The notes under the pieces: model-generated
The model's database searches: none
What the model was told of the DNA's origin: nothing
Seen by the model: the letters and a program-made list of their open reading frames with translations, nothing else
Made by a program: the position numbers and the translations under genes
Shown here: in pieces, positions 6,385 through 39,262 of the stretch
Position numbering within the stretch: position 1 is the stretch's first letter
Layout of the letters: the number at the start of each line of letters is the position of its first letter
DNA from: an uncultured Clostridia bacterium
Lineage (GTDB): Bacteria > Bacillota > Clostridia > Lachnospirales > Lachnospiraceae
Direction of reading: 5' to 3'
NCBI GenBank assembly: GCA_945836135.1
Contig: CAMAKT010000003.1
Span: forward strand, 1-39,415
DNA length: 39,415 nucleotides

Positions 6385-6963
6385 TTGGTTAAGGAGTTGG
6401 CAAAAAAGAACAGGTCTTACAGAAGGTTTTATGAAGACAGAAAGATTAAAAGGGAACAGCTTGTGGATATGATTGACTGTGTGCGCTATACTGCATGCGG
6501 GGGCAACAAGCAGACCCTTAGATTTCTTTTGGTATGCGATGATAAGGAAAGCGAAAAACTCTTTTCGAGTCTGCAATGGGCGGGATATCTGCCTGAATGG
6601 GACGGCCCTGTGGAGGGTGAACGTCCGTCGGCTTACATTATTCTGTTAAGCGAGGCAGCTTCGGCAAATGCTACGAATTGGGACGAGGGAATAGCTGCAC
6701 AGACAATTCTGCTCGCGGCAGTTGAGATGGGATATGGTGGATGCATTTTGGCCAATATTGACAGAAATACTATAGTTTCTGATTTTGCAATAGGAAGCGA
6801 TTATGCGGTTAAACTTGTAATAGCTCTGGGTGTGCCGAAGGAAGAGGTGGTTATTGAGGACATCTCCTACGGTGATGACATACGCTATTACCGCGATGCC
6901 AACCAAGTACACCATGTACCGAAGCTTAAGACGCAGGAGTTAATATACGGAGAGGATAAATAA
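6385..6963 (+). CDS. Nitroreductase family protein
   Basis: Nitroreductase pattern (KKNRSYRRFYEDRKI...AAVEMGYGGCILANIDR...ALGVPKEE); TTG start preceded by GGAGG. Confidence 0.85.
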   Translation: MVKELAKKNRSYRRFYEDRKIKREQLVDMIDCVRYTACGGNKQTLRFLLVCDDKESEKLFSSLQWAGYLPEWDGPVEGERPSAYIILLSEAASANATNWDEGIAAQTILLAAVEMGYGGCILANIDRNTIVSDFAIGSDYAVKLVIALGVPKEEVVIEDISYGDDIRYYRDANQVHHVPKLKTQELIYGEDK

Positions 6964-6975
6964 TAAATTTAAAAG

Positions 6976-7139
6976 TAACAGTTCAGCCCGCACCATTCGC
7001 AAAGTCGCCCCTACGGTGCTTTTTCGCTGCTTCGCAGCTAACTTTGCTCATAAACATGGCGCTCCGCTCATAGCCTGCGACATGAGCTAATTCATGCAAG
7101 CATGATTATCTCATGTTACAGGCTATGGCTGAACTGTTA
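6976..7139 (+). repeat. Structured interspersed repeat, copy 1 (12-bp TIR TAACAGTTCAGC/GCTGAACTGTTA)
   Basis: Near-identical to 38952-39111; perfect 12-bp terminal inverted repeat (13 bp with flanking G/C) plus internal stems CATAGCCTG/CAGGCTATG, ACATGAG/CTCATGT, TCATGC/GCATGA, GCAAAG/CTTTGC, GCTGC/GCAGC. Confidence 0.93.
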
Positions 7140-7160
7140 CATATAAAATGGGGGAAAATT

Positions 7161-8099
7161 ATGCAGGGGCTTGCACAATTAATTGTTAAAGAAGTTAAAA
7201 AAGCAGTTGTGGGCAAGGATGATATACTTGAAAAGGTAGTTCTTGCCATTCTTGCCAGAGGTCACATCCTGATTGATGATATACCGGGAGTGGGAAAGAC
7301 GACCATGGCCATGGGATTTGCAAAGGCGATGGGATGCAAATGTAACAGAATACAGTTTACACCGGACGTAATGCCATCTGACATTATGGGCTTTTCGGCG
7401 TACAATCCGAAAACGCAGGAGTTTGAATATAGGCAGGGAGCGGCAATGTGTAATCTTCTCCTGGCAGACGAGATTAACAGAACTTCCAGCAAGACACATT
7501 CGGCATTGTTAGAGGTAATGGAGGAGAGGAGAGTTTCGGTGGATTCGGTTACGCATCCTGTTCCACAGCCTTTCACTGTTATTGCAACGCAGAATCCCAC
7601 AGGTTCTATAGGAACACAGCTTCTGCCGGAATCCCAGCTTGACCGTTTTATGATTCGGGTATCCATGGGATATCCTGACAGGGAACAGGAGATAAGAATA
7701 CTTAAGAGCAGAGCAGGAAGTGTCCCGGTGGATGAGGTAAGATGTGTTACTGACGCAGAGGGAATTCTAGAGTTGCAAAGGCAGACTGACAACATCTATG
7801 TCCACGATGCAATCTATGATTATATTGTGAGGCTTGTACAGGCGACAAGAAATCATGAATATGTGGAGCTTGGCGTGAGCCCGCGAGGAACCCTGGCGTT
7901 AACTGCCATGGCAAAGGCTAATGCTTTATATGAGAACAGGGATTACTGTATTCCGCTTGACGTAAAAAAAGTATACATGGACGTGGTATGTCACAGGCTG
8001 GTGCTTAATTCAAAGGCAAGAATGAACAAGGTAACTTCCGCCATGGTGGCAGGAAGTATACTGGCTTCCGAAGCTGTTCCGAGACAGGCCAAGAGGTAG
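7161..8099 (+). CDS. MoxR family AAA+ ATPase
   Basis: Walker A GVGKTTMA, LLADEINRTSSKTHSALLEVMEE, ATQNP; ATG 7161 after GGGGGAAAATT. ORF-track start at 7113 falls inside the repeat. Confidence 0.95.
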   Translation: MQGLAQLIVKEVKKAVVGKDDILEKVVLAILARGHILIDDIPGVGKTTMAMGFAKAMGCKCNRIQFTPDVMPSDIMGFSAYNPKTQEFEYRQGAAMCNLLLADEINRTSSKTHSALLEVMEERRVSVDSVTHPVPQPFTVIATQNPTGSIGTQLLPESQLDRFMIRVSMGYPDREQEIRILKSRAGSVPVDEVRCVTDAEGILELQRQTDNIYVHDAIYDYIVRLVQATRNHEYVELGVSPRGTLALTAMAKANALYENRDYCIPLDVKKVYMDVVCHRLVLNSKARMNKVTSAMVAGSILASEAVPRQAKR

Positions 8100-17226: not shown

Positions 17227-17694
17227 ATGAAAAAGCTGAAACTTTTTCTGGTGTGCACAGTGATATCGGTAATCAGCGTTTTCGGTCTCACCGCATGTTT
17301 TAATGACGGGAGCGGCCAACAGGGAACTGGTAATGAAACCACAAGCAGTGCCACCGGCAACGGAAACAACAATGCAACAACTAACGGCAACGGTAACGGA
17401 ACCAACGGTACAACCAATGCCACCAAAGAGAACAATAACAATGGTACGACTAACGGAACAACCAATGGTAACGGAACCAATGGTACGACGAATGGCAACG
17501 GAGTCAACGGTAATGGAACCAATGGTACGGTAAATGATGGAATAAATAATCATGAGACCAATACCGATGCCAACGGCAATATCATCAATGGTGTTGGTGA
17601 TGTAATCAATGACGGCCTCGATGAGATTGAAACAGTTATTGACGACATTGACGGCAATAATGCTACTAACGGCAATAACACAAGAACACGTTAG
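17227..17694 (+). CDS. Asn/Gly/Thr-rich low-complexity lipoprotein
   Basis: Signal peptide with lipobox-like GLTAC; AAGGAGATAGTT upstream; body of NGNGTNGTTN-type repeats. Confidence 0.8.
   Translation: MKKLKLFLVCTVISVISVFGLTACFNDGSGQQGTGNETTSSATGNGNNNATTNGNGNGTNGTTNATKENNNNGTTNGTTNGNGTNGTTNGNGVNGNGTNGTVNDGINNHETNTDANGNIINGVGDVINDGLDEIETVIDDIDGNNATNGNNTRTR
17387..17530 (+). repeat. Degenerate tandem repeat encoding (N-G-T/N)n
   Basis: Reiterated units such as aacggaaccaatggtacgac / aacggaaccaacggtacaac. Confidence 0.75.
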
Positions 17695-38052: not shown

Positions 38053-38946
38053 TTGAAGAGACTTCTGTTCATATTTAATCCATGGTCCGGTAAGGCACAT
38101 GTTAAGGATCACCTTTTTGAGATTGCAGATGAGTTTTCAAAAGCAGGATATTTAGTTACGGTATATCCTACCCAGAGGGAAAAGGACTGCTATGAGTATG
38201 TACGCGCAAATGCGGGGGAATATGATTTGCTTGTATGCAGTGGAGGAGACGGAACTCTCAATGAAGCCGTAGCGGGATTGTTGGATAATACGGAATGCGA
38301 CATACCTATAGGCTATATTCCAAGCGGCAGTACCAATGATTTTGCATCAAGCCTAATGATACCTAAGACTGTAAATAATGCTGTAAAGAACATAATAGAA
38401 GGCACGGAATTTCCGTGTGATGTCGGTTGCTTTAACGGGCGCTGGTTCAATTATGTGGCTGCTTTCGGACTTTTTACAGAGGTATCCTATGCTACGCCTC
38501 AGCAGCTTAAGAATGCCCTGGGACATCAGGCATATATTATTGAAAGCGTCAAGAGTTTTGCAAGTCTTAAGTCTTATGAGCTTAAGGTGGAGTGCGAAGA
38601 TTTTGAGACTGAAGGCAGATTTATATATGGGATGGTAGCCAATTCCAAGTCCGTAGGAGGTATAAAAGGTATCACAGGTAAAGAAATAAAGCTTGACGAC
38701 GGACTTTTTGAGGTTATACTTATAAGGGGACCTAAAAATCCTATGGAATTCCAGACCATGTTTAACGGCTTCATTTTTCAGACAGACAATAATATGGTCA
38801 AGCATCTCAAGTGCAGTGAAATTACTTTTACAAGCGCTGAACCTATACCGTGGGTATTAGATGGGGAATTCGGAGGAGAGCAGACAAGGGTGCAGATTAC
38901 TGTGGAAAATAAAAAGGTCAGGTACTTAATCTCCAAGCACCCGTAA
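38053..38946 (+). CDS. Diacylglycerol kinase family lipid kinase (YegS/DgkB-like)
   Basis: LLFIFNPWSGKAHVKDHL, LLVCSGGDGTLNEAVAGL, IPSGSTNDFASSL; TTG start after AAGGAGG. Confidence 0.92.
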   Translation: MKRLLFIFNPWSGKAHVKDHLFEIADEFSKAGYLVTVYPTQREKDCYEYVRANAGEYDLLVCSGGDGTLNEAVAGLLDNTECDIPIGYIPSGSTNDFASSLMIPKTVNNAVKNIIEGTEFPCDVGCFNGRWFNYVAAFGLFTEVSYATPQQLKNALGHQAYIIESVKSFASLKSYELKVECEDFETEGRFIYGMVANSKSVGGIKGITGKEIKLDDGLFEVILIRGPKNPMEFQTMFNGFIFQTDNNMVKHLKCSEITFTSAEPIPWVLDGEFGGEQTRVQITVENKKVRYLISKHP

Positions 38947-38951
38947 TATTG

Positions 38952-39111
38952 TAACAGTTCAGCCGCGCCATTCGCAAAGGCACCTTCGGTGCTTTATCAC
39001 TGCTACGCAGCTAACTTTGCTCATAAAATGGCGCTCCGCTCATAGCCGGCAACATGAGCTGATTCATGCAAGCATGATTATCTCATGTTACCGGCTATGG
39101 CTGAACTGTTA
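38952..39111 (+). repeat. Structured interspersed repeat, copy 2 (12-bp TIR TAACAGTTCAGC/GCTGAACTGTTA)
   Basis: Same organisation as 6976-7139; additional perfect stems GCGCCAT/ATGGCGC, GCACC-ttc-GGTGC, CATAGCCGG/CCGGCTATG, AACATGAG/CTCATGTT. Confidence 0.93.
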
Positions 39112-39262
39112 AGTGATATTTTGTCGATTAAGTGCAAGGTGTGGCGAAAAACTGCACTTGATACCGGTCATAACTTCTGATATTATAATCTTAGGTTCGA
39201 AAACAGGGGATTTTGAACCTGTGAAGGGTAGTATAAGCGATTATATTTAAGGAGGAGTGACT

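Follow-up and report, generated by a model that had tools for sequence, protein, structure and literature searches.

A probable IS66-associated miniature element near moxR in a Lachnospiraceae genome and its core related to Clostridiales-1 RNA

Bacterial genomes contain several families of short, non-coding, hairpin-forming repeats, including NEMIS/Correia, ERIC, RUP and Nezha, that occupy intergenic positions and are possibly co-transcribed with adjacent genes. The repeat analyzed here resembles them in being short (166 bp), non-coding and multi-copy, with 30 matches in its own genome, and differs from them, by description, in its ends, its target duplications and the transposase families involved. 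For the ends, the relevant described system is the ISBst12 group of the IS66 family, whose member ISDge4 combines the ends GTGACTACTCAGCA/GTAACTGCTCAGCA with a single ORF and a repeat of 8 bp (PMC12898284). The group and the repeat have in common the GTAACnnnTCAGC-form ends (GTAAC..TCAGC) and 8-bp direct repeats (PMC12898284), and the autonomous partner described below likewise has a single transposase ORF, whereas the element in the window contains no gene and its interior is unrelated to that of the transposon. For the interior, the relevant system is the Rfam family RF01699 (Clostridiales-1 RNA), presented as a candidate RNA in a paper from which the words transposon, transposable and mobile are absent (PMC2864571). 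In the literature searched we found neither the end sequence of the repeat, nor a MITE of the ISBst12 group, nor any description of MITEs in the Lachnospiraceae.

Two copies of the element in the window

The window, i.e. the whole analyzed stretch of 39,415 nt from an uncultured Clostridia bacterium, carries copy 1 of the element at positions 6975-7140, on the minus strand if the strand of the Clostridiales-1-like fold is taken as reference. It lies between a nitroreductase-like gene (6385-6963, plus strand, stop codon at 6961-6963) and moxR (7161-8099, plus strand), both named so in an earlier note on this DNA. The repeat, the terminal inverted repeats and the nested stems described in that note are all present and far beyond chance. 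Its boundaries of 6976-7139 have to be moved outwards by one base on either side; the inverted repeat is perfect, as claimed, and 14 rather than 12 bp long, and the intergenic distances to the stop codon and to the moxR start are 11 and 20 nt rather than 12 and 21. The two copies of the inverted repeat GTAACAGTTCAGCC are located at 6975-6988 (plus strand) and 7127-7140 (minus strand), and are bordered by ATTTAAAA (6967-6974) and ATATAAAA (7141-7148), an 8-bp target duplication identical at 7 of 8 positions and of the length that is statistically established across the family.

The interior comprises two minus-strand domains. Domain I (6989-7064) is a branched stem with two inner hairpins and conserved ATTCG (6995-6999) and CTCAT (7047-7051) motifs, whose minus-strand forms are CGAAT and ATGAG. 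Domain II (7070-7126) is a long hairpin with the apical loop CAAG (7097-7100; minus-strand CTTG), the arms of which are lineage-variable yet complementary. The plus strand of copy 1 also folds very stably, at -69 kcal/mol compared with -39.9 +/- 3.9 for shuffled sequences (z -7.5, 0/200). The sequence after position 7139 reads CATATAAAATGGGGG and contains no U-tract downstream of the hairpin, in agreement with the earlier view that this is no ordinary intrinsic terminator. Elsewhere in the window we noted a lysine riboswitch aptamer (RF00168; 15078-15252, plus strand, 105.5 bits) and a region of degenerate direct repeats with AAC-rich units (17352-17555), which is probably an Asn/Gly/Thr-rich coding stretch.

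The second copy reported for the window is present at 38951-39112 (162 bp, minus strand) with the ends GTAACAGTTCAGCC/GGCTGAACTGTTAA. Its left target duplication GTAATATT (38943-38950) includes the stop codon TAA that terminates the upstream gene (38053-38946) and is matched at 7 of 8 positions by the right one, GTGATATT (39113-39120). The earlier note had allowed for these two copies being the only ones; in the source genome (G000, 2.75 Mb) there are about 30, counted as sequence matches to full or partial copies, some of them short deletion forms of 37-52 bp. The 13-bp end, at no more than one mismatch, occurs there 48 times versus 4 for its reversed control.

Mobility and a probable IS66-type partner

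Among 62 elements from seven genomes, 21 are flanked by a perfect 8-bp duplication, compared with 0.24 in shuffled pairings. The same analysis of a set of 123 elements gave 45 perfect duplications and 69 with at most one mismatch, the shuffled control having 0.44 perfect ones (200 shuffles, maximum 3). No comparable excess was observed at other duplication lengths, and the perfect 8-bp duplications are 79% A+T. Our initial reading of the ends as flanked by a 2-bp TA duplication (IS630 type) was abandoned, because the duplication excess sits at 8 bp.

The distribution of the ends is patchy. With up to one mismatch, they number 48 in G000, 55 in G004 and 270 in G030, well beyond the reversed control in these three genomes, and the exact end is absent from the congeneric genome G001. 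Among the matches listed, named carriers are mostly Lachnospiraceae (Mediterraneibacter, Acetatifactor, Roseburia, Butyribacter and Robinsoniella), while isolated 14-mer matches in other phyla are partly due to chance. Three loci (L225, L221 and L267) from MAGs labelled Actinomycetota, Desulfonatronospira and Nitrospirae have GTAA[CT]AGTT[CT]AGCC ends and 8-bp duplications with 0-1 mismatch, and GTAACAGTTCAGCC-type ends are therefore not confined to the Lachnospiraceae. A scan of viral contigs for the end provided no partner in the retrieved stretches, most matches being probably chance 14-mers. At one further locus (L060 1361-1990; G013:C3, about 77.4-78.0 kb), a tandem array consists of four type-A copies of the element arranged head to tail, about 160 nt apart and with adjoining ends common to neighbours.

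Both loci lack the element in G001. There, the window gene lying immediately upstream of the nitroreductase-like gene has an ortholog that is directly followed by moxR (74% identical), and at this syntenic place both the element and the nitroreductase-like gene are missing. The syntenic locus was located through moxR; the nitroreductase-like gene used as an anchor gave none. The absence of the latter gene makes the precise empty site for copy 1 unreadable, and the absence of the element indicates that it does not belong to the conserved make-up of the moxR operon. The G001 ortholog of the gene upstream of copy 2 is 81% identical and ends CATCCGTAG, with no element downstream of it. Type-A copies showed no orientation bias relative to neighbouring genes in a small sample. 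The description of copy 1 as lying in the leader of the MoxR operon consequently holds for its position only.

The analysis of unpaired ends revealed a full-length copy in Lachnospiraceae bacterium IMSAGC_019 (L239), in which one ORF of 494 aa, encoding an IS66 transposase (PF03050, E 4e-19), lies between two GTAACAGTTCAGCC ends in inverted orientation at a distance of 1.8 kb. This copy has no visible target duplication, and it shares only the 14-bp ends with the window element, their interiors being unrelated. Among the retrieved loci, nothing credible was found that combined paired ends at IS distance with a target duplication. We searched 397 Lachnospiraceae genomes for homologues of the L239 transposase. 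At all six loci with 66-97% homologues (two in G390, one each in G326, G339, G255 and G030) the exact 14-mer occupies the place of the element end; a 61% homologue in G065 has the 2-mismatch form GTAACTATTCAGCC, and several distant homologues have GTTACTGTTCA-type ends. In a hand-chosen and thus non-random set, the end is present in all five genomes with 66-97% homologues versus 9 of 36 others. Exact end copies number 77+77 in G030 and 25+24 in G255, and G030, the genome richest in ends, also carries the transposase. No IS66 transposase was found in the window's own genome, a 303-contig draft of 91% completeness, and G004 and G063 have many ends and no close transposase. The classical IS66 copies in G004, G014, G029 and G036 were ruled out as partners, as no such ends lie nearby.

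As judged from these sequences, the element is probably moved by IS66-type transposases and has spread among Lachnospiraceae of the gut. An IS66-family transposase would bind the GTAACAGTTCAGCC ends in trans and move the element, and the insertion would duplicate 8 bp of an AT-rich target. The copies in the window, with 7 of 8 duplicated positions identical, would be older insertions from a time when a transposase was present.

A structured core related to Clostridiales-1 RNA

On the minus strand, the long hairpin with its CTTG loop is followed by the branched domain, the ATGAG...CGAAT of which is present in 47 of 54 type-A elements. The hairpin arms form 12 sequence clusters, and the mean duplex energy of arms from the same element is -29.7 kcal/mol versus -9.9 for arms combined from different clusters. 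MAFFT combined with RNAalifold did not align the long hairpin correctly; the arms were therefore tested directly and on the alignment to a reciprocal model, R1, which was built from copies of the window's genome only, with the ends removed. Two-sided changes occur at 44 of the 45 modelled pairs (45 sequences), and the covariation score is 0.69 compared with at most 0.12 when slid, the R1 alignment being itself structure-fitted. On the minus strand G-U pairs outnumber A-C pairs, 56 versus 26, with an excess in seven of eight informative clusters, while the window's own cluster is balanced (12 versus 15). We regard this excess as a weak sign of selection on the minus strand as RNA.

No Rfam family matches copy 1 at its own cut-off. 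Under permissive settings RF01699 aligns to its minus strand over positions 1-166 of 166 (33.5 bits, E 5.6e-6), below the gathering cut-off of 48. Conversely, R1 recovers RF01699 loci at rough E-values of 8e-7 to 3e-4, and this match is based on the hairpin apex and the ATGAG/CGAAT pairing. A long hairpin with a GCUUGC apex, followed by a branched AUGAG...CGAAU domain, is common to both, whereas the terminal stem and the outer repeats are unlike. We class the window element as related to RF01699 rather than as one of its members. The earlier note had counted a named Rfam family among the observations that would speak against its proposal, and what exists is this sub-threshold relative; its notion of an uncharacterised structured RNA is partly supported by a core fold kept by compensatory change, although the strand that matches Rfam runs antisense to moxR.

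Of 200 Lachnospiraceae genomes, 112 contain RF01699, often in multiple copies. At the retrieved RF01699 loci we delineated 24 elements of about 185-224 bp with the ends TGATRYYRGGGTCAAAAGG/TGATGTTGGGGTCAAAAGG, 14 of them with a perfect 5-bp duplication and three with a 6-bp one, versus about one in shuffles. Given these ends and 5-6-bp duplications, unlike the GTAACAGTTCAGCC ends and 8-bp duplications of the window element, RF01699 in these genomes is the inner part of a second MITE system. The window's genome itself also contains a canonical RF01699 element (L448, G000:C202:3225-3389, 136.6 bits), whose ends are TGATACC. The short loci of G004 and G030 gave no RF01699 match at E 0.05, so the Rfam model detects only part of the family.

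Many elements with the same 14-bp ends have very different interiors. Six loci (L263, L265, L227, L268, L175 and L216; about 186-230 bp) combine the same or similar GTAACAGTTCAGCC ends with a different interior, and several of them have a common centre, CGCCACGCTC...CTAAGCTCG...CTCGCTAAG, which may represent another structured family. A third interior (L168, L169, L180, L190, L194, L256, L259 and L326; 137-156 bp) carries GGACTTTGCA...TGCAAAGTCC close to one end and, towards the opposite end, an internal copy of GTAACAG. At about position 2304 of L028 (G000:C263), a core-like hairpin GGGGGAGCTTGCTCACC is followed by ATGAGCA...TGCGAATGGC with neither of the known end sets, and is a possible third carrier of the core.

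Alternative interpretations and implications

The strongest competitor of a transposable element is a small RNA of the Clostridiales-1 kind that is spread by transposition and retained for its RNA function. This would account for the strong covariation across genera, the conserved ATGAG/CGAAT and GCTTGC motifs, the overall G-U excess on the minus strand and the occurrence of one core under two different end sets. However, the Rfam score stays well below the cut-off, the window's own cluster shows no such excess, near-perfect palindromes could also be maintained by DNA-level correction between the arms, and the duplications and copy numbers are typical of a mobile element, and we consider this interpretation rather unlikely. 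That a transposase of another family mobilizes the element, the ends resembling those of IS66 by convergence, is much less probable still: G000, G004, G031 and G013 do have ends without a close IS66 transposase, but the exact 14-mer bounds the close IS66 homologues in five genomes, and all five have the ends, which is the case for only a minority of the others in the hand-chosen set.

A cis-acting RNA leader of the moxR operon, selected in place for stability, processing or attenuation, could be suspected from the location of copy 1 between co-directional genes, just ahead of moxR, and from the stable plus-strand fold. We find it very improbable, as the congener's moxR operon does without the element, about 30 copies lie elsewhere in the genome, type-A copies show no orientation bias, the Rfam-like strand is antisense to moxR and a U-tract is absent. 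REP/BIME- or ERIC-like repeats spreading by another mechanism have a comparable size, palindromic shape and intergenic place, yet the exact 8-bp target duplications and the ends shared with IS66 elements indicate a DDE transposase and make this option extremely improbable.

We therefore consider it very probable that the repeat is a non-autonomous transposable element (MITE) with an IS66-family partner. The MITE-like identity, one of several options in the earlier note, agrees with the copy number, the ends and their flanking duplications, the syntenic loci that lack the element, and the transposase found between matching ends. Most likely the core is no regulator of moxR; the conserved branched structure would most likely serve the element itself, by stability, by hairpin extrusion or as a transcript tolerated in untranslated regions. 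Its ends, duplications and RF01699-like core together define a new MITE family of an already known kind.

This MITE family is large, occurs in a bacterial family dominant in the gut, goes unmentioned in the literature searched and is tied to a little studied group of transposases. Two observations were unexpected, namely that annotated loci of an Rfam small RNA sit inside mobile DNA, and that one structured core is common to two different transposition systems, one with IS66-type ends and 8-bp duplications, the other with TGATRYY ends and 5-6-bp duplications. Since RF01699 loci lie inside MITEs, genomic and metagenomic counts of 'Clostridiales-1 sRNA' should be taken as a measure of transposon load. 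It is a tentative idea, which we find somewhat doubtful, that a Clostridiales-1-like core is carried by at least two unrelated transposition systems because its minus-strand RNA or hairpin DNA is selected. If the shared core is selected, it would offer a test case for the role of structured RNA or hairpin DNA in bacterial MITEs, and the core would be a portable part aiding the spread of many MITEs or their tolerance by the host.
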